In this document: positions 3,474-23,426 of the stretch, in pieces
Position numbering within the stretch: the first letter of the stretch is position 1
Layout of the letters: each line of letters starts with the position of its first letter
Virus record (IMG/VR): IMGVR_UViG_3300009285_004241
Span: 1 to 35,795 of that record
Source: a virus
Direction: 5' to 3' (one strand)
Length of the DNA: 35,795 nucleotides
The notes under the pieces: model-generated
What the model saw: the letters and a program-made list of their open reading frames with translations, nothing else
The model's database searches: none
Told to the model about the DNA's origin: nothing
Position numbers and translations under genes: made by a program

Positions 3474-4043
3474 GTGGCGGATTTGATTGTGAGAACTAGT
3501 ATTCCAATTAATGTTGAACACTTTGTTGTTGATCCCCCTTGGCCTAAACACAAAGGGGGATTGAGGGCGGTGCGGCCCAGGCAAGGCCGGGACTTAGATT
3601 ATAAAGTGATGAGCGTTGGAGAAATATTCCAGCTTCTGGATTCTGAAATACTGCCTATGGCTTTAGGCTCTCATAATGTATTTTTGTGGGTGGTGGATGA
3701 GTTCCTAATGGAAGCCGAATTGGAAATGGAAAAAAGATCATACAGACGCCACGCTCGGTTGATTTGGGATAAGGGAAATGGGGTAGCTCCTTGTTTTACT
3801 GTTAGGTTTTCTCATGAATATCTGTTATGGTTCTACAAACCAAGACTTCTTGGGGTGTGTAGTGAGGCGAGAGGAAGGTTTACTACAGTAATTCGTGCCC
3901 CGTCCAGGGAGCATAGTAGAAAGCCTGATGAAGCTTACGCTTTGTTGGATACCCTTTACCCGGGGAGCCCGAAGATTGATGTGTTTAGTAGAGAGGCTCG
4001 GTCTGGCTGGTATCAATATGGGGATGAGGTTACGAGGTGGTAA
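3474..4043 (+). CDS. MT-A70 family adenine-N6 methyltransferase
   Basis: 189 aa. The GTG start lies 12 bases after the polymerase stop, behind a G-rich ribosome binding site; the overlapping ATG at 3472 is closed by an early stop. The DPPW catalytic motif at about residues 20-23 (VVDPPWPKHKGG), followed by NVFLWVV, RHARLIWDKGNG and HEYLLWFYKP, is the pattern of MT-A70-like methylases that transfer methyl from S-adenosylmethionine to the N6 of adenine. Phage members usually methylate genomic DNA against host restriction. The protein is short but all core segments are present. It may act as an orphan methylase, since no restriction partner is nearby. Confidence 0.85.
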   Translation: MADLIVRTSIPINVEHFVVDPPWPKHKGGLRAVRPRQGRDLDYKVMSVGEIFQLLDSEILPMALGSHNVFLWVVDEFLMEAELEMEKRSYRRHARLIWDKGNGVAPCFTVRFSHEYLLWFYKPRLLGVCSEARGRFTTVIRAPSREHSRKPDEAYALLDTLYPGSPKIDVFSREARSGWYQYGDEVTRW

Positions 4044-10424: not shown

Positions 10425-11402
10425 ATGAGGGAGATACGAGTCAGGAATGTAAATTATGCTTTGCCGATAGGCTTGAATCTCCTGTTGTTGGAGGGGATAC
10501 GGAGACCTTCCCGGAACGGCCCCGTGTTGGAGTATCCGGAGGCAGTGGCTACGGTGTATGAGAGGCCGCTGGAGCGGGTGCTGTTCAGCCCGGAGCGGGA
10601 TGCCAACCATTATTTCCATTTCTTTGAGTGCCTTCACATGATTGCCGGGCGGAACGATGTAGCTTGGCTGGCGCAATTCAATAAAAAGGTTGTCGAGTAC
10701 AGCGATGATGGGCAGGTATTCCATGGGGCTTATGGGCACCGTTGGAGGTCCTTGGGGATGAATCAGCTAGAGCAAATAGTGGAACTTCTCCGCTCTGACC
10801 CGGGCACTAGGCGGGCTGTGCTCCAGATGTGGAATTGCTCTTGTGATTTGGGTAAAGACAGCAAGGACTTACCTTGCAACACTCACGCCTATTTTAAGAT
10901 CCGGGAAGGCCGCTTGCACATGACGGTTTGCTGCAGATCGAATGATATTATTTGGGGAGCTTACGGAGCCAACGCCGTCCACTTTAGTTTCCTCTTGGAG
11001 TATGTGGCGGCTAGGGTGGGTGTGCCTGTAGGGGTTTACACCCAGATCAGTGATAGTTTCCATATGTACGAAGAGGTGTATGAGAAGCTTTCCGGATTGT
11101 CCTCCTTGTCCGTAAGTCCAGCGCATTGCCTGTATACTGTTGGGGAGGTTGAACCTTTCCCTATCACACCGTTGAATGGCTTTTGGAACTATGGGCTGAA
11201 GAAGTTGTTTAAATCTCCGGAGACTTTTTCTGGACACCGGTTTTTTGATGAGGTGGTACGGCCTTTGTACCTCTCTTTTATAGCCTACAAGAGCAAGGAT
11301 TTCACAAACGCTTTGTGTTGGGCCAAACACTGCGCAGCCAAAGACTGGGGCCGGGCTGCCACGGAGTGGCTGAAGCGCCGTCCTAGTTATCTTGACACAT
11401 AA
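10425..11402 (+). CDS. Thymidylate-synthase-family enzyme, probable dUMP hydroxymethylase
   Basis: 325 aa. The catalytic cysteine is C151 in DLPCNTHAYF. It is followed by the phosphate and pyrimidine-binding block RSNDIIWGAYGANAVHFS (N183 in the base-recognition position) and YTQISDSFHMY near the folate site. The fold uses methylene-tetrahydrofolate to add a one-carbon group to C5 of dUMP or dCMP. Plain thymidylate synthases reduce the group to methyl; the phage hydroxymethylase relatives stop at hydroxymethyl. The retained Asn favours uracil over cytosine (T4-type dCMP enzymes carry Asp). The family motifs alone do not separate synthase from hydroxymethylase. The neighbours (5-hmdU DNA kinase halves, amino acid:DNA transferase, radical SAM) make 5-hydroxymethyl-dUMP the more likely product. 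Confidence 0.85.
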   Translation: MREIRVRNVNYALPIGLNLLLLEGIRRPSRNGPVLEYPEAVATVYERPLERVLFSPERDANHYFHFFECLHMIAGRNDVAWLAQFNKKVVEYSDDGQVFHGAYGHRWRSLGMNQLEQIVELLRSDPGTRRAVLQMWNCSCDLGKDSKDLPCNTHAYFKIREGRLHMTVCCRSNDIIWGAYGANAVHFSFLLEYVAARVGVPVGVYTQISDSFHMYEEVYEKLSGLSSLSVSPAHCLYTVGEVEPFPITPLNGFWNYGLKKLFKSPETFSGHRFFDEVVRPLYLSFIAYKSKDFTNALCWAKHCAAKDWGRAATEWLKRRPSYLDT

Positions 11403-11416
11403 GGGAGCCCTACACC

Positions 11417-11986
11417 TTGAGGATTGGTACCAAGATCCTTTTGTTTGGGACTCATAATTTCTTGCTTCACCCGCTTCTGGTCCTTGTAGCCACACGGATC
11501 ATTTGGGGCTGCTGGCCTGGGTGGAGAGGGGTTGTTTGTATTATGATTCATGATTGGGGTTACTGGGGCAGTTCACACATAGATGGGGAACCACAGAGTG
11601 ATGGGCACCCGAGGTTGGGGGCTGAGATTGCTGGTTGCTTGTTTGGGCTGAAGTATCGTAAGGTGGTGATGTACCACTCCAGAACTTTGGCTAAATTGGA
11701 CAAGGAGCAAACTTCTTGGCTCTGTTGGCCTGATAAAGCTTTTTGGCTCCTTATGCCCAATTGGTTAATTAGCCTGTTGTGCAAGTTGTCTGGGGAGCTT
11801 CAAGAGTATGAACAGACTCCTTACCACTGTGGTTTTGGATTTGACCCGGAGAGGTGGAAGAGGCAGGTTGATAGCTGGTTGAAAGCGGAGGGGATTGATT
11901 TCTTGGGCAAGGTGCCTACCCGTTGGAGGTGTTTGATCTCATACAAAGGGGAAACAGATGGGATTGAACCCGTCTCTGCGCCTTAG
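11417..11986 (+). CDS. HD-superfamily phosphohydrolase-like protein
   Basis: 189 aa. The TTG start has AGGGAG about 10 bases upstream. Putative metal ligands follow the HD order: H in NFLLHPLL, the doublet in IMIHDWGYWG, H in SDGHPRLGAEI, H in VMYHSR, and D in CWPDKAFW. The region between is rich in Trp and hydrophobic residues but has no clear membrane segment. HD enzymes cleave nucleotide phosphates. Within this cluster a dNTP or dNMP phosphatase that lowers the canonical dTTP/dTMP pool, as phages with hydroxymethyluracil DNA do by other means, is a reasonable guess. Substrate unknown. Confidence 0.6.
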   Translation: MRIGTKILLFGTHNFLLHPLLVLVATRIIWGCWPGWRGVVCIMIHDWGYWGSSHIDGEPQSDGHPRLGAEIAGCLFGLKYRKVVMYHSRTLAKLDKEQTSWLCWPDKAFWLLMPNWLISLLCKLSGELQEYEQTPYHCGFGFDPERWKRQVDSWLKAEGIDFLGKVPTRWRCLISYKGETDGIEPVSAP

Positions 11987-12953
11987 CAAGGACCGTAAGG
12001 TCCAAGTTGAGGAGTCAGCTTTGAAATTGTTTTGGTATTGGGTTTGCGAGCGCCACAATATATTTCTCCGCCGCGTGGTCCAAAAACTCCTTCCCCCTTG
12101 GACAAAAGACCTGGTGCTATCCTCTGTGTATTTTACACACCCGTATCGGGAACTGGACCGGTTGACACGGTATCTTATACTGAATATCCTCCCGCACATT
12201 AGGGAGGACCCAAATATGGTTATTTTCAATATTTGGGTGTATCGGTTCTTCAATTTGATTGAGACCTTTGAGTGCTTGGGCGGTTACTCCAATTATTGGG
12301 ACAAAGGTCAGGCTCGGGGGACTCTCTTTCAACGTCAGCAGCAGGGTCAAAAGATCTACACTGGGGCTTTTATGGTCAATTCGGCGGGGTCTAGGCCGGG
12401 TCCGGGCGGGAAACTGGATTTGGTTTTGGACAGGATCGACTGGGTATGGAAACGGATGCCAGAGTATGGAGAAGAGATTAGAGCTTGTAAGACCATGGAA
12501 GAGGCCCATAAGATGATCGACAAGGCCCCTGGAGTGGCTGGGTTTCTGGCTTATGAGATGTTGATTGATATGTGTTACGATCCAAGGGTCCTACCGTTTT
12601 CTGAGGATGAGTGGGTGAATGTAGGACCAGGTGCCAAGCTGGGGTTGAGCTTCTTGTTCCCAGACATTGAAATGAGCAAGGCGGATTGTGTTTCCGCTTT
12701 GAACTGGCTGCGTTGGAACCAGAGGGAACAGATTCATTCCCTGGATCTTTGCCTTTCCGGGCCGGAATTGACCTTAAGGAATGTGGAGCACTCATTGTGT
12801 GAGTTTTCCAAATATTTCCGTGGATTGAATGGGGGAAGGGGAAAGCGCCGGTATCCTCCCCCGGGCCGGCAACCTAATGAGGATTATTCGTTGTGGAAAA
12901 GGCTCCCGGAAAGATTTAGTTATGGGAGGTGTTGGGTAGGGTGTGGAGATTGA
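11958..12953 (+). CDS. 5-hmdU DNA kinase helical-domain protein (hypermodification)
   Basis: 331 aa. The ATG has AAGGGG 6 bases upstream and overlaps the HD gene by 29 bases. The sequence fits the helical domain found in 5-hydroxymethyl-dU DNA kinases and first described among the aGPT-pyrophosphorylase groups: FWYWVCERHNIFLRR, PPWTKDLVLSSVYFTHPYRE, LDRLTRYLI, NIWVYRFFNLIETFE, then a glycine-rich turn and PGVAGFLAYEMLIDM near residue 195. In characterised phages this domain is usually fused to the P-loop kinase; here the P-loop protein is the next, separate gene. The domain probably binds DNA carrying 5-hmdU and helps position the base. Assignment rests on remembered family patterns, not on a search. 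Confidence 0.72.
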   Translation: MGLNPSLRLSKDRKVQVEESALKLFWYWVCERHNIFLRRVVQKLLPPWTKDLVLSSVYFTHPYRELDRLTRYLILNILPHIREDPNMVIFNIWVYRFFNLIETFECLGGYSNYWDKGQARGTLFQRQQQGQKIYTGAFMVNSAGSRPGPGGKLDLVLDRIDWVWKRMPEYGEEIRACKTMEEAHKMIDKAPGVAGFLAYEMLIDMCYDPRVLPFSEDEWVNVGPGAKLGLSFLFPDIEMSKADCVSALNWLRWNQREQIHSLDLCLSGPELTLRNVEHSLCEFSKYFRGLNGGRGKRRYPPPGRQPNEDYSLWKRLPERFSYGRCWVGCGD

Positions 12954-12957
12954 GGTG

Positions 12958-13533
12958 ATGATTGTGAGGTGTCCATTACCTATTCAGAACCGTGCTTGGG
13001 TGGTGGTGAACCTCCGGGGCTCTGGGGGGTCAGGCAAGTCCTACGTGGCTAGAGCATTGATTGAACAGCTTCACGGTCAACCTATAAAAAACCAGGAGGG
13101 TAAAACAGAAGGCTACAAACTGGATCACAATATCTATGTAGTAGGGCGGTATGAAACTCCTTGTGGGGGTTGTGATACCATTAAAACCAGGGAGGAGGTC
13201 ATAGGGCGGGTCAGAAGGTATGCCCGACTTGGAAACGTGTTTTTTGAGGGGTATGTGGTATCAAAAACTTATTCCACTTATGTGGAATTGGATAGGAGTC
13301 TGGGTGGTATGATTTGGGCGTTTTTGGACACCCCGCTGGAGGTTTGTATTGAGCGGATTTATCAGCGCCGGGGTGGAGAGAAAACCAGACTTATTAAGAA
13401 CGCGGAGGTATCTTACGCTTTTGTGGTGAGGTCCAGGGAGAAAGCCATTAGCGATGGGCTAAACGTCTGGGACATTCCTTATCAGAATAGTGTTGATGCA
13501 GTCCTTGGGTTGTTTAGATTGAGTGGTGACTGA
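12958..13533 (+). CDS. P-loop kinase, probable 5-hydroxymethyl-dU DNA kinase catalytic subunit
   Basis: 191 aa from the ATG at 12958 (GGAG at 12945-12948; GTG at 12943 is an alternative). Walker A GSGGSGKS is at residues 21-28. The middle has the pattern typical of 5-hmdU DNA kinases: VVGRYETPCGGCDTIKT, then a helix with EEVIGRVRRYA and GNVFFEGYVVSKTY, where a Walker B-like glutamate follows two phenylalanines. A lid with RIYQRRGGEKTR follows. The enzyme transfers phosphate to the hydroxymethyl group of the base within DNA, making it a leaving group for the next step. It sits directly after the helical-domain gene, so the two likely form one enzyme from two chains. Confidence 0.75.
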   Translation: MIVRCPLPIQNRAWVVVNLRGSGGSGKSYVARALIEQLHGQPIKNQEGKTEGYKLDHNIYVVGRYETPCGGCDTIKTREEVIGRVRRYARLGNVFFEGYVVSKTYSTYVELDRSLGGMIWAFLDTPLEVCIERIYQRRGGEKTRLIKNAEVSYAFVVRSREKAISDGLNVWDIPYQNSVDAVLGLFRLSGD

Positions 13534-14363
13534 TGATTGGCCTGGTGAGGAGGGGAACTCCTATTGAGCCATACTACCTGGGGTGTGGCCGGAGGGTCTG
13601 GGTAAAGAGAGAAGATTTGTGTGTAGATGAGGCCCATTTTAGCAAGCTGAGGGGGGTGGCCGCTCACCTTGAATCAATTCAATCCTCTGTTATTGGGGTG
13701 TTGGATACTGCACACTCTAAGGCTGGATGGGGGGTGACTTATATAGCCAGGTCGCTGGGCAAAAGGGTTGTGGCGTACTACCCCTGCTATAAGGGTGAAA
13801 TCAATTTGAGGGAGAACCAGAGGAACGCAGAGCGGTTGGGCGCAGAGTTGGTTCCGTTACCGGCAGGGCGGAGTTGTATTCTGTATCACTGGTCAAAGGC
13901 TGATCTTCAGATCCGTTACCCGGCTGATTCCTATATGATGCCGAATGCGCTCAAATTGGAGGAGTCCGTTCAGGAGACGGCTCTGGAGGTGAGTACAGTT
14001 CCGGGCGTTTTTTTCCAGGATAGTTGCGTTTGGGTGGTATCGGCGTCCTCTGGGACGTTGGCAGCCGGGGTGATCCGGGGGCTTTATTGGGCTAGTTCCA
14101 AGGCAAAGGTGATTGTTCATCTGGGGTATTCAAGACCCTCTAGTGCGGTGTTGAGGTATCTTTATGGTAAGAGTGGTGGTTTCCCCGGAATCCCCAATGT
14201 GGAGTTGGTGGATGAGGGCTACCAATATAAGGATTTGGTCAGCGCGGAGACCCCTTTTCCGTGCAATCCGTATTATGATCTGAAGGCCTGGAAGTGGCTA
14301 AACAATAACCCTGCGGTGCTTAATGGGTGTAGTAGAGTTTTGTTCTGGAACATTGGATCTTAG
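13533..14363 (+). CDS. PLP-dependent enzyme, fold type II (TrpB/ACC deaminase-like)
   Basis: 276 aa. The ATG overlaps the kinase stop by one base (TGATG). The N-terminus RVWVKREDLC and HFSKLRG (K38, likely Schiff-base lysine) and the phosphate-binding loop SSGTLAAG (172-179) mark the tryptophan synthase beta/threonine synthase/ACC deaminase superfamily of pyridoxal phosphate enzymes. The segment GWGVTYIARSLGKRVVAYYP is the usual cofactor-domain helix and strand. Such enzymes do beta-elimination, beta-replacement or deamination on amino acids. Here it may edit the amino acid attached to the base in DNA or supply the amino-acid donor. It is shorter than the usual 320-400 aa. Confidence 0.8.
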   Translation: MIGLVRRGTPIEPYYLGCGRRVWVKREDLCVDEAHFSKLRGVAAHLESIQSSVIGVLDTAHSKAGWGVTYIARSLGKRVVAYYPCYKGEINLRENQRNAERLGAELVPLPAGRSCILYHWSKADLQIRYPADSYMMPNALKLEESVQETALEVSTVPGVFFQDSCVWVVSASSGTLAAGVIRGLYWASSKAKVIVHLGYSRPSSAVLRYLYGKSGGFPGIPNVELVDEGYQYKDLVSAETPFPCNPYYDLKAWKWLNNNPAVLNGCSRVLFWNIGS

Positions 14364-14378
14364 GGTGGGGGGAATCTG

Positions 14379-15833
14379 ATGATTGAATGGAGAGAGCCAA
14401 TGACGGTTCGCAATCCTGTTTCTGTGGAGAGGCCCGGAGTCCCGGACCTGCTGGATGAAGACCTGGTGAACTTGGAGCACGTAGAGACCCCTCCGGAGAA
14501 GCCCAAGTATGATCGGTTTATGCGGACAGAATCTCACGTAAAACAGGATTGGGTGGTGGACCCGGAGACCGGATGGAGGTATGAGTATTGGGACATCGGG
14601 ATGACCAGGAATTCCACAAGGAAAAAGATGACCAAGGTTTTCTTGGAGCCTATCCCACATATTGTCTTGAGTCAAGATGTACCTCTGAGGGGTTGGTACG
14701 AGTCTAAGTTTGAGCCTAAAAACGTGAGACCGAGACCTTGTTTCACCGAGTCAATTCTCACTTCCCCTTATGGGGGCTTTTGTAGCGTGGGCTGCGCATT
14801 TTGCTACATAAATAATGGGGTGAGAGGCTACCGGGGGCAAGGTGTGACAGTGGTTGATCCATCTTACCCGGACAAAATCAAGAGACAGTTGACCGGGATG
14901 AGGACGGGAGCGGCAGTGTATATGTCCTCATTCATTGATCCATTCCTTGAGTTGGAGGATTATTACCACAACACTGAGAGGACCGCTCGGGCCGTGGTGG
15001 AGGTTGGATTGCCGATTTACTTCTTGACTCGTAAACAGCCTCCGGTTTGGACGTTTGATCTGCTGAAGAAAAACCCGTACAGCTATATGCAGTTTTCTGT
15101 TAACACCCCATCCAGCGATGACTGGAGGAGGCTGTCTCCTCGGGCAGTCCCTTTGGAAACTATGATGGAAAACGTCCGTGCTATGCACGATCACGGGATA
15201 TATGTTTCCATCCAAGTAAATCCAATTGTTGCTGGGGTCACATCGAACGAGGAGATTGTGGAGTTGATCTACAAGTTGGCTGAGGTTGGGGCGGATCATT
15301 TGATTTTCAAATATGTGGAGATTGTGTACCCGGCTGCTCAGGCGATGATCCAACAAATTAAGAATCGGTTTCCGGGGCGGGCGGAAAGGTTTACATCGCT
15401 GTTCACCCAGAATATCGGTGGGGTAAAGACAGTTGACGAGGGCTACCGGAAAGCTGGTTTGGATCTGTTTATGAAAGAGACTAAGCGGGCCGGGGTTACA
15501 ATGTCCGTTTGTTATGAATACGAGTATGAGCGGGGCAAGGATGGGTCTGTGGTTTCAAAAACTGGCGTATCAAAGGGAAGGCAATACACTACATCGGATC
15601 AGTGCCACGGGCACCGGGTTCCTGTATTTTCCAGGCCCTTGGGGGATGTCTTGTTCAAACCAATGGAATTTTGCCACAAATCTGGTTGCCTCCATTGCGC
15701 GGATGACCAAGGGGGAGAGGAGAAAGTGCCCTGTGGAAACCTATTATTGGCTAAGGCCCCGGCCTTGGACCCGGATATGTTGAAGGCTGTAGCGGATCTT
15801 AGCTTAAAAAAATTTGTGAGGAGCCCAATATAG
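14379..15833 (+). CDS. Radical SAM enzyme of the DNA-hypermodification cluster
   Basis: 484 aa. The ATG at 14379 follows a GGGGGGAA ribosome binding site. The radical SAM signature CSVGCAFCY gives C135, C139 and C142 for the 4Fe-4S cluster that cleaves S-adenosylmethionine. The order of barrel segments resembles spore photoproduct lyase-type enzymes: YMSSFIDPF, IYFLTRKQPP, MQFSVNTPS, and YVSIQVNPIVAG. The C-terminal quarter has several more cysteines (DQCHGH, EFCHKSGCLHC, VPCGN), which could bind an auxiliary cluster or zinc. A radical SAM isomerase is part of the known 5-aminoethyl-dU pathway of Pseudomonas phage M6, where it converts an N-linked amino acid to a carbon-linked one. A related rearrangement is the likely job here. 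Confidence 0.85.
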   Translation: MIEWREPMTVRNPVSVERPGVPDLLDEDLVNLEHVETPPEKPKYDRFMRTESHVKQDWVVDPETGWRYEYWDIGMTRNSTRKKMTKVFLEPIPHIVLSQDVPLRGWYESKFEPKNVRPRPCFTESILTSPYGGFCSVGCAFCYINNGVRGYRGQGVTVVDPSYPDKIKRQLTGMRTGAAVYMSSFIDPFLELEDYYHNTERTARAVVEVGLPIYFLTRKQPPVWTFDLLKKNPYSYMQFSVNTPSSDDWRRLSPRAVPLETMMENVRAMHDHGIYVSIQVNPIVAGVTSNEEIVELIYKLAEVGADHLIFKYVEIVYPAAQAMIQQIKNRFPGRAERFTSLFTQNIGGVKTVDEGYRKAGLDLFMKETKRAGVTMSVCYEYEYERGKDGSVVSKTGVSKGRQYTTSDQCHGHRVPVFSRPLGDVLFKPMEFCHKSGCLHCADDQGGEEKVPCGNLLLAKAPALDPDMLKAVADLSLKKFVRSPI

Positions 15834-15851
15834 GCGGATTCGGGGGCACTG

Positions 15852-16826
15852 GTGAAAGAGCTTGACCCTAAGATATTCCACGATATCCTTACATTTGGTA
15901 AGCTCCTAGTGGACACTAAGGACATTGATCCTATCTACCCCCTGTTGTCTAATGTGATAGAGAGGGAGGGGCTAGTCCAGGAGGACGGGCTTTGGCTTTC
16001 GTTTTTGTATCTCTTCTACTACAATGCAGCCTCTGCTTGGGCCACGTTCCAGGAGTTCCCCAGGATGTTGAATATTATGACGGATCAGGGAGAGGGGGCG
16101 TTTCGAGACTGGGAGAAAGATAATCGGGCTGGACTTTCTATTGGAATGGAGCGCCGGGGGCTCCGGGGGGGTAAGGTGGTACCGGTTGTTGCCTTTTTGG
16201 CCAGGATGATAGGGCCGGGGAACCTCCTAAACTGGTTGTCTGACGGGCTAGGCGGGGACCGTAGGCAGAATTATGAGGTTTTGTGGGTTAGGGTGCAGAC
16301 CCTTCCCCAGGTGGGACGCTGGGCCGCATTTAAGTGGCTTGATTTGCTCCTTCATGTTCACAATTTCCACCTGGAAACCCCGGATATGAGGATATCCCAC
16401 TGCTCTGGTCCAAGGCAGGCTTTGGAGGAACTATACCTGGGGGGTCATAACCCGAGGCAGGATTCAGATTATATATTCTCGCTTAATTGTTTGGGTATGA
16501 GGTTAAAAGATCAACTTGAATCCTGTGGGCTTCCCTTAACGTGGGATGAATTGGAGACTGTCCTGTGTAATTTTCACAGTTTGTGCTACGGGAGGTATGT
16601 GGTTGGGCACGATATAGATGAACACCTTGGGCACACTCTCCTTGGGATCGGGGACCAAAGTTCTTGGATGGAAGCTCGGGGCCGCGTCTTTGACCCATGC
16701 CTTTTGGGTGAACTTCATGGTTGGACTGGAATTAGAAAGCCTTTGTTAGGTTTGTATAGGGATAATGGTATCATTTACAACCCTTTAACAGATGATAATG
16801 GGGGTGGATACGTTGGAAGAGGATAA
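15852..16826 (+). CDS. Amino acid:DNA transferase-like protein (aGPT-pyrophosphorylase clade)
   Basis: 324 aa from a GTG. Family-typical segments include DIDPIYPLLSNVIE, GLWLSFLYLFYYNAASAW, a GMERRGLRGGK box, VGRWAAFKWLDLLLHV, ISHCSGPRQALEEL and a late LCNFHSLCYGRYVVG. This matches the group originally named alpha-glutamyl/putrescinyl thymine pyrophosphorylase, related in fold to helical DNA glycosylases. Members in phages ViI and M6 displace the phosphorylated hydroxymethyl group on the base with an amino acid. It would act on DNA after the split kinase. The attached amino acid cannot be read from the sequence. Identification is by remembered pattern, so a profile search is the proper test. 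Confidence 0.72.
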   Translation: MKELDPKIFHDILTFGKLLVDTKDIDPIYPLLSNVIEREGLVQEDGLWLSFLYLFYYNAASAWATFQEFPRMLNIMTDQGEGAFRDWEKDNRAGLSIGMERRGLRGGKVVPVVAFLARMIGPGNLLNWLSDGLGGDRRQNYEVLWVRVQTLPQVGRWAAFKWLDLLLHVHNFHLETPDMRISHCSGPRQALEELYLGGHNPRQDSDYIFSLNCLGMRLKDQLESCGLPLTWDELETVLCNFHSLCYGRYVVGHDIDEHLGHTLLGIGDQSSWMEARGRVFDPCLLGELHGWTGIRKPLLGLYRDNGIIYNPLTDDNGGGYVGRG

Positions 16827-17253
16827 GATTGTGAGAGGTGTCCGGGAGGGTTTGGGAAGCTTATTGTCGCAGGAGATCTGCTCGTCCTTGGAAGCCCTTT
16901 CACAGGACATTGCTGTGGGTGGGACGGTAGAGTTCAGGAATATGGATTTGCCTAGTGTGTCCCCACCAGGGGTGGATGATCTTGCCAGAGCGTTGTTTTT
17001 TGTTGTGAACCTCTACGCTTTGAAAAACCCAAAATATGGAGACAGTTGGTGCCGCCGTGGGGGGCACGGAATTTTCCACAATGTGGCTAGGAAATTTGAT
17101 CGACTAGAGCGGGCGGAGCTAGAGGGGGCTGTTTTCGAGATGGATGAGATTGTGGATTTAGCCGTGTATTCTTGGCTTCAGTTGGCTTGGCACTTGAGCC
17201 ATCGCACGGAAGACTTTGAGGCTTGGGTCCGGAGGGTATTCACTCAGCCTTGA
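16813..17253 (+). CDS. Nmad1 (DUF1599)-like nucleotide-modification-associated protein
   Basis: About 146 aa. The start is uncertain: TTG 16813 has GGGGTGG 5 bases upstream; ATG 16792 lacks a ribosome binding site; GTG 16831 has GAAGAGG. The core KNPKYGDSWCRRGGHGIFHNV..KFDRLER..MDEIVDLAVYSWLQLAW matches the nucleotide modification associated domain 1 pattern (YGDSW, then helices with E and D in ..EIVDLA), an all-alpha fold resembling MazG-type nucleotide pyrophosphatases. It probably hydrolyses or binds a (modified or canonical) dNTP. It closes the cluster: a 238-base gap with a new promoter candidate follows. Confidence 0.65.
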   Translation: MEEDKIVRGVREGLGSLLSQEICSSLEALSQDIAVGGTVEFRNMDLPSVSPPGVDDLARALFFVVNLYALKNPKYGDSWCRRGGHGIFHNVARKFDRLERAELEGAVFEMDEIVDLAVYSWLQLAWHLSHRTEDFEAWVRRVFTQP

Positions 17254-21613: not shown

Positions 21614-21799
21614 TTGGCTCCAGAAAACTGCACCACGAGAGAACTTTTGCAAAGTCCTATTTTCAATCTAGCTCTATGCGAGCGGTGCGGGTGGAGTAAA
21701 AGAACAGAGGAAAGATTCCTCCGTGACCCGAATGTAAAGGAACTGTTTGATAGAATCGTGCAGGCTCATCGCTGCGAAAGAGAACAGGAGAAAGCATGA
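21614..21799 (+). CDS. Small cysteine-containing protein, doubtful
   Basis: 61 aa from a TTG with AAGGGA 8 bases upstream. NLALCERCGWSKRTEERFLRDPNVKELFDRI has a CxxC and a helical remainder. It ends 8 bases before the methylase start, so it may be a small partner gene. The start and reality of the gene are uncertain. Confidence 0.4.
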   Translation: MAPENCTTRELLQSPIFNLALCERCGWSKRTEERFLRDPNVKELFDRIVQAHRCEREQEKA

Positions 21800-21806
21800 G
21801 CCTGCA

Positions 21807-22796
21807 ATGTTGAAAGCTCCATTTCCATGGTTTGGCGGGAAGTCCAAGGTCGCCCCGATCGTTTGGGAGAGATTCGGCAAGGTGGCCAACTATGTGGAAC
21901 CGTTCTTCGGGTCGGGAGCCGTGCTCTTGGGACGGCCGCAGACATTCTCAGGAATCGAAACAGTGAATGACAAAGACGGATTTGTTGCCAATTTCTGGCG
22001 GGCTCTGCAACAGGAACCAGAGAGCGTAGCCAAGTACGCTGACCAACCAGTCAACGAGAATGATCTGCACGCCAGGCACATATGGCTAGTTTCACAGAAA
22101 GAGTCTCTGGTTGCTCGGCTAGAGGGCGATCCAGAGTTCTACGATTCTAAAATCGCCGGTTGGTGGGTCTGGGGGATCTGCTGCTGGATTGGGAGTGGAT
22201 TCTGCTCTGGGAAAGGCCCGTGGGGCACCGTGGAAACCGAGGATGGGGCTTGGCAACTGGTCCACTTGAGGAACGCGGGCAGGGGGGTGAACCGGCAACT
22301 GGTCCACTTGAGGAACGCGGGCAGGGGGGTGAACCGGCAACTGGTCAATCGTAATTCTGGCGGACTCTACGGGTGGATGCAGGACCTTGCGGAAAGGCTA
22401 CGATATGTCCGCGTCTGCTGTGGGGATTGGTCCAGGATATGCGGCCCATCCCCGACATACACGCAAGGACTGACTGGGGTGTTTTTGGACCCGTCGTATT
22501 CGGGCGATACGGGGCGGACTCCTGACATTTATGCTGTTGACGATTTGAGGGTTGCGCCTCTTGCCCGAGGATGGGCGATCCAAAACGGTCAAAACCCTCT
22601 GCTACGTATTGCCCTCTGTGGCTATAAGCCAATGGAGATGCCACCCGGATGGAGCGCGGTCAATTGGTCTAGTAAAGGGGGCTATGGAGTAGGTAGGGGT
22701 GGCACCGGTGAGAAGAATAGGCACCGTGAGGTTGTTTGGTTTAGTCCATTTTGCATTGTTCCTCACCGTGAGCCGGTGAGGTTTGACGGGGGTTAG
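21807..22796 (+). CDS. D12-class DNA adenine-N6 methyltransferase (Dam-like)
   Basis: 329 aa from the ATG at 21807, chosen because family members begin APFPWFGGKS; an in-frame TTG at 21747 is upstream. The SAM-binding start is FPWFGGKSKVAP with NYVEPFFGSGAVLLG. The catalytic tetrapeptide is DPSY (VFLDPSYSGDTGRT), a permitted variant of DPPY. Residues 149-176 are a perfect 14-residue tandem duplication (42-base units), which probably lengthens a surface loop of the target-recognition region. It methylates adenine in a short duplex site, most likely for protection against restriction. It lies in the composition-shifted segment and is the second adenine methylase in the window. Confidence 0.88.
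   Translation: MLKAPFPWFGGKSKVAPIVWERFGKVANYVEPFFGSGAVLLGRPQTFSGIETVNDKDGFVANFWRALQQEPESVAKYADQPVNENDLHARHIWLVSQKESLVARLEGDPEFYDSKIAGWWVWGICCWIGSGFCSGKGPWGTVETEDGAWQLVHLRNAGRGVNRQLVHLRNAGRGVNRQLVNRNSGGLYGWMQDLAERLRYVRVCCGDWSRICGPSPTYTQGLTGVFLDPSYSGDTGRTPDIYAVDDLRVAPLARGWAIQNGQNPLLRIALCGYKPMEMPPGWSAVNWSSKGGYGVGRGGTGEKNRHREVVWFSPFCIVPHREPVRFDGG
22252..22335 (+). repeat. Two perfect tandem copies of a 42-base unit
   Basis: Units at 22252-22293 and 22294-22335 are identical, followed by a partial third start (GGCAACTGGTC). They lie in frame inside the D12 methylase gene and encode a 14-residue repeat containing HLRNAGRGVNRQ. Confidence 0.95.
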
Positions 22797-22805
22797 GAAG
22801 AGGAT

Positions 22806-23426
22806 ATGGGATTAAAAAATGACCGTTGGATTCTGGATCAGTCTTCCAGGTACAAGATGATTGACCCGTTTGAGCCGCAGCAGGTGTCACAGTACTGTGG
22901 GAGGTGTGGACCTTTGCCGTCTGAGCCTACTGAATGCCGCCACATAGAGGAGAGGAGAAGAGTGGTGTCATATGGGCTTTCCTCCTACGGGTACGATACC
23001 CGGGTGGCGGATGAATTCAAGATATTCACAAATATCAACTCCACGGTGGTGGACCCTAAATGTTTTGATCAGAAATCCTTTGTGGACTTTAATGGGCCTG
23101 TGTGCATTATCCCACCCAATTCATTTGTGCTGGGTCGCACTGTGGAGCGGTTCCGAATTCCACGGGACGTTTTGGCCATCTGCTTAGGAAAGTCCACTTA
23201 TGCCCGCTGTGGGGTTATCATGAATGTGACCCCGTTTGAGCCTGGTTGGGAGGGGTACGCCACTGTGGAGATTTCCAATACTACTCCCCTGCCTGCCAAA
23301 ATCTATTCCCACGAGGGGATTGCTCAGGTGATCTTCTTCGAGGGGGATGAGCCTTGTTGGGTAGATTATTCCCAGCGGAAGGGCCGTTACCAGAACCAGG
23401 AGGGGGTTGTCCTACCGAAAGTATGA
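22806..23426 (+). CDS. dcd: dCTP deaminase
   Basis: 206 aa. The ATG follows AGGAAGAGG. Family features: [54 protein letters not shown] (with the catalytic Glu of the W-EG-A-T-VEI segment), [10 protein letters not shown] and a C-terminal [11 protein letters not shown] that closes over the nucleotide. An N-terminal insertion with CGRCG and C-R-H (about residues 32-47) is unusual. The enzyme makes dUTP from dCTP; it may be mono- or bifunctional with dUTPase activity. It supplies the dUMP needed by the thymidylate-synthase-family hydroxymethylase, so it links this accessory region with the hypermodification cluster. Confidence 0.92.

Follow-up and report, generated by a model that had tools for sequence, protein, structure and literature searches.

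A phage thymidine hypermodification cluster probably of the M6 type, with a transferase from a second deep clade

Does a run of eight viral genes that reads as a thymidine hypermodification pathway lead to the base already described from Pseudomonas phage M6, or to a new one? The window, i.e. the whole stretch of DNA analysed, comprises 35,795 bases and comes from an IMG/VR virus record that is classed as a linear, probably incomplete sequence. Genes for a DNA polymerase, a UvsX-like recombinase, SbcC/SbcD-like proteins and a RuvC-like resolvase lie upstream of the cluster, and terminase, portal and head genes lie downstream, identifying the window as a tailed phage. Between 10425 and 17253, the eight ORFs are intact, all on the + strand and tightly packed, with neighbours either overlapping or standing 12–18 bases apart (gaps from −35 to +18 bases), an arrangement like that of a single operon. 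A sequence-only reading had named eight consecutive genes here, and all eight were found at those positions. Gene identities, computed here along with M6 counterparts and catalytic motifs, agree with that reading throughout, six of them by Pfam and PHROGs profiles and the weaker HD and Nmad1 calls by homologues:

10425..11402, + strand: TS-family pyrimidine hydroxymethylase, predicted dUMP 5-hydroxymethylase (PF00303, phrog_5131)
11417..11986, + strand: small HD-like putative phosphohydrolase of an uncharacterised viral family (motif conserved in 80 homologues)
11958..12953, + strand: HMUDK_hel / aGPT-Pplase1 helical protein (PF18723, 4.7e-59)
12943..13533, + strand: 5-hmdU DNA kinase, P-loop (PF18748 HMUDK_HMUD1, 7.5e-9)
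13533..14363, + strand: fold-II PLP enzyme, predicted C-glycyl-T decarboxylase (PF00291, phrog_7093)
14379..15833, + strand: radical SAM (rSAM) enzyme, predicted N-glycyl-T to C-glycyl-T isomerase (PF04055, phrog_9252)
15852..16826, + strand: amino acid:DNA transferase (ADDT) of clade B, predicted 5-PmdU glycinyltransferase (PF18724, 3e-16)
16792..17253, + strand: Nmad1-family (DUF1599) accessory protein (family members match PF07659)

Six core enzymes in the window correspond one-to-one to gp51–gp55 and gp58 of the 5-NedU pathway of M6/YuA (Mesyanzhinovviridae), bearing out the earlier view of the locus as an M6-like cluster for thymidine hypermodification. M6 DNA contains 5-(2-aminoethyl)deoxyuridine (5-NedU) (PMC6449724), and phage SN1, 97% identical to M6, carries the same cassette of hydroxymethylase, aGPT-Pplase1, kinase, rSAM enzyme, PLP enzyme and aGPT-Pplase2 (PMC9476957). 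With good confidence, we regard the window cluster as an M6-type module with 5-NedU as its most likely product.

The TS-family protein (PF00303, 1.3e-18; phrog_5131, 1e-101) has 48% identity to M6 gp58, and its closest solved structure, also its best PDB match, is the CMP 5-hydroxymethylase MilA. Residues C151, R171, S172, D174 and N183 and the SDDG motif at 93–96 are identical in M6 and PaMx11, while in alignment MilA has Asp at the position of Asn183; in TS-family enzymes, Asn at that position is suited to uracil and Asp to cytosine. The helical protein is the counterpart of M6 gp55 (28%, 2e-21), with no match in a PDB search, and the kinase is that of gp54 (36%, 2e-25), with a Walker A motif, GSGGSGKS, that aligns with M6; PF18723 and PF18748 are both above cutoff for this pair. 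The PLP enzyme (PF00291, 4.6e-9; phrog_7093, 2e-62) matches M6 gp52 with 47% identity over 284 aa (1e-76) and has an invariant Lys38 in an FSK motif. Its neighbour, the rSAM enzyme (PF04055, 3.4e-8; phrog_9252, 4e-123), has 45% identity over 460 aa to M6 gp53; the CxxxCxxC motif (C135/C139/C142) and the C-terminal cysteines C432/C437/C440/C452 are invariant in the family, and a PDB search with the rSAM alignment gave no match. The profile check that the sequence-only reading had proposed places both the helical protein and the transferase inside the families it had named.

For the window phage we infer the following reactions, substrate amino acid and end product. The TS-family enzyme would make 5-hydroxymethyl-dUMP, polymerised into DNA as 5-hmdU, which the P-loop kinase and its helical partner would convert within DNA to 5-PmdU. 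The glycosylase-fold transferase would then replace the phosphate of 5-PmdU with glycine, joined via its nitrogen, giving N-alpha-glycyl-T; the rSAM enzyme would turn this into C-alpha-glycyl-T, and the fold-II PLP enzyme would decarboxylate the latter to 5-(2-aminoethyl)-dU, i.e. 5-NedU. Lee et al. (2021) reportedly described the same late steps, with glycine placed onto activated 5-hmdU before an rSAM enzyme isomerises and a PLP enzyme decarboxylates. A share of thymidines would be modified, with TG/TC probably the main contexts, as they are in M6; phage DNA would thereby be shielded from restriction. For M6, restriction sites that resist cleavage indicate a preference for TG/TC, and on 5hmdU DNA its purified 5hmdU kinase acts at TG (PMC6449724). 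Elsewhere in the window, a dCTP deaminase-like gene (22806–23426; PF22769, 8e-33) might supply the hydroxymethylase with dUMP, and M6 too has a putative dCMP deaminase. Two putative adenine methyltransferases (3474–4043 and 21747–22796; MT-A70, 1e-14, and D12 class, 1.5e-6) mean that this DNA may carry a second type of modification.

Departures of the gene set from that of M6 had been read as a sign that the final base may be new. Most of them proved to be features of M6 itself: its kinase parts are likewise separate genes (gp54 and gp55), its gp52 is the same fold-II PLP enzyme and its gp53 the same rSAM enzyme, and an HD gene (gp59) directly follows its TS gene (gp58). With these features present in M6, the grounds for a new base fail, and we rejected the split kinase and the fold-II PLP enzyme as marks of a new pathway. 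The HD gene was rightly called a difference only in that the two HD proteins belong to different families; the Nmad1-like ORF is indeed absent from M6. Neither speaks for a new base. The window further differs from M6 in gene order and in its transferase, which falls in the other deep clade from gp51.

The HD-like ORF has no match of its own in Pfam or PHROGs, and its weaker identification draws on residues conserved across 80 IMG/VR homologues (loci L122–L201), among which H13, H18, H45-D46, H64, H87 and D106-K107 are invariant. PF01966 (HD) matches only below cutoff, in 2 of the 80 and in a Manatee Spring homologue, and the AF2 model, built from one sequence, is poor (pLDDT 41). The TTG start agrees with the family N-terminus, M[KR][IV]GTK. 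In IMG/VR this viral family spans at least 95 contigs, and Pfam and PHROGs give it no match above cutoff. Near its 80 homologues we found no kinase, HMUDK_hel, PLP or transferase genes; a TS gene is close to two of them and an rSAM match to one. Comparison with the YfbR-like HD nucleotidases M6 gp59 and PaMx11 gp52 by blastp, hmmsearch and hhalign likewise gave no match. As a pathway hallmark the protein was rejected, given that its family is not associated with modification genes and that any similarity between it and the M6 HD protein was undetectable. Its place downstream of the TS gene is reminiscent of M6 and PaMx11; the protein may be a nucleotidase, and may stand outside the pathway.

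Scans with the PLP protein and an rSAM alignment returned 83 distinct rSAM loci, viral or metagenomic. Single-sequence scans with the rSAM and HD-like proteins found few or no relatives, and alignment queries found many. Counting was confined to the 26 loci flanked on each side by at least 8 kb, the window and M6 among them; part of the locus set was found through its PLP gene. ADDT is present in 26/26, the kinase in 25/26, HMUDK_hel in 24/26, and TS and PLP genes in 23/26 each. The module is thus widespread, and nearly all well-flanked rSAM loci carry the other genes. An Nmad1-like ORF occurs in 7 of the 26. The window ORF itself does not match PF07659 (Nucleotide modification associated domain 1), but two of the six members of its family alignment do (best 1.8e-7), and the hydroxymethylases of Glutamicibacter phage Montesquieu and of one further locus (L038 and L067, respectively) carry an Nmad1-like domain as a fusion. 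The Nmad1 protein probably aids or controls the hydroxymethylase step.

Several loci vary in composition. Lysinibacillus phage LysYB1 (L043:18-6234) groups rSAM, kinase, HMUDK_hel, TS and Nmad1-like genes; neither a PLP nor a transferase match turned up in the 12 kb scanned. Two tandem PLP genes stand beside the rSAM gene at L027:9085-10810, a 20 kb locus without a transferase or kinase match. In three loci (L016:6827-9334, L022:4482-6887 and L027:6672-9245) the rSAM gene seems to hold an intein-like insertion, the proteins being 801–857 aa long; PF14890 (Intein_splicing) is above cutoff in L016 and below it in L022 and L027. Two contigs of an Anaerolinea MAG (L118 and L121) carry an rSAM gene very close to that of M6 (tree distance about 0.05) and probably represent phage DNA that was assigned to the MAG by binning.

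The transferase has only 25% identity to M6 gp51, against 45–47% for the rSAM and PLP enzymes and their M6 counterparts. Its AF2 model, built from 14 sequences (pLDDT 84), has three significant fold matches in the PDB, all to the PaMx11 5-PmdU glycinyltransferase (8z2m/8z2n; E 1e-5, with prob 1.00 for 8z2m), and the next plausible matches, 8-oxoguanine DNA glycosylases, fall far below significance. In a tree of 66 transferases, two deep clades separate with support of 100/100: M6 and PaMx11 fall in clade A, and the window falls in clade B with nine other rSAM-bearing loci and the actinophages Kozie and Phelemich. We know of no biochemically tested member of clade B. It is conceivable, though unlikely, that the clade-B enzyme loads not glycine but another amino acid, and that the shared rSAM and PLP enzymes then yield a different, possibly undescribed 5-substituted deoxyuridine; the chance of a different base comes down to this one enzyme. 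The deep separation of clade B from the clade of the M6 and PaMx11 glycine enzymes would fit such a change, as would the low identity to gp51, whereas every residue invariant across the family is kept in the window protein and the two clades interchange on the trees of the downstream enzymes. The clade label changes 6 times on the rSAM tree, at least 3 of them forced by well-supported branches, and 4 times on the PLP tree, at least 2 of them so forced. Labels are more clustered than shuffles on both trees, so the swaps are real without being frequent. Among the three nearest relatives of the window rSAM enzyme, L035 has a clade-B transferase, and L046 and L047 have clade-A ones. Such swapping suggests that either clade feeds the same downstream enzymes.

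Some known systems have other late enzymes. The glycyl-T/5-aminomethyl-dU pathway of PaMx11 (gp46–gp52; PDB 8z2m) has hydroxymethylase, kinase, HMUDK_hel and glycinyltransferase in common with the window, but an FAD enzyme and an acetyltransferase gene in place of the rSAM and PLP enzymes, neither of which had a match in the stretch scanned. Kozie and Phelemich carry the closest isolate relatives of the window transferase (31–33%), with the kinase adjoining and, in the stretch scanned, an FAD oxidoreductase related to PaMx11 gp47 instead of rSAM and PLP enzymes (L039:879-3273 and L040:1670-3869); this set likely represents a 5-aminomethyl-dU type module. The pairing of clade B with a PaMx11-like FAD enzyme, together with the A/B swapping, argues for glycine in both clades, and the simplest reading would be that both yield the same product, glycyl-T. 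For the window transferase itself, the modelled fold, the invariant residues and the clade swapping all argue for glycine. Salmonella phage ViI is more distant: its 5-NeOmdU pathway shares a kinase and a PLP enzyme with the window, Vi01_182 matches the PLP profile weakly (9e-7), and no rSAM or ADDT match was found in the 50 kb scanned (105–155 kb). By published LC-MS, its end product is a different one (PMC6449724).

One late enzyme might be inactive or poorly expressed, leaving a simpler end product such as 5-hmdU, glycyl-T or a mixture. Other phages do stop elsewhere, as PaMx11 does with its transferase and FAD enzyme, but in the window all ORFs are intact and tightly packed, and the catalytic Lys, the CxxxCxxC motif, the Walker A motif and the TS Cys are kept, making this outcome very improbable. 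The PHROG names of the rSAM and PLP families, 'DNA repair photolyase' and 'threonine dehydratase', would suggest repair or amino-acid enzymes with no role in base modification, an idea to which we give almost no credence, as the M6 counterparts belong to a cassette tied to hypermodified thymidine (PMC6449724, PMC9476957) and the rSAM gene accompanies the transferase in every well-flanked locus.

Returning to 5-NedU as the favoured product, the window cluster adds a new member to a protection system that is known and widespread, and good grounds for expecting a new base from it are lacking. With about 80 distinct loci carrying an M6-type rSAM gene, the M6 pathway is no curiosity of Pseudomonas phages, and its two interchangeable transferase clades offer a concrete and cheap test of the amino acid that each one loads.
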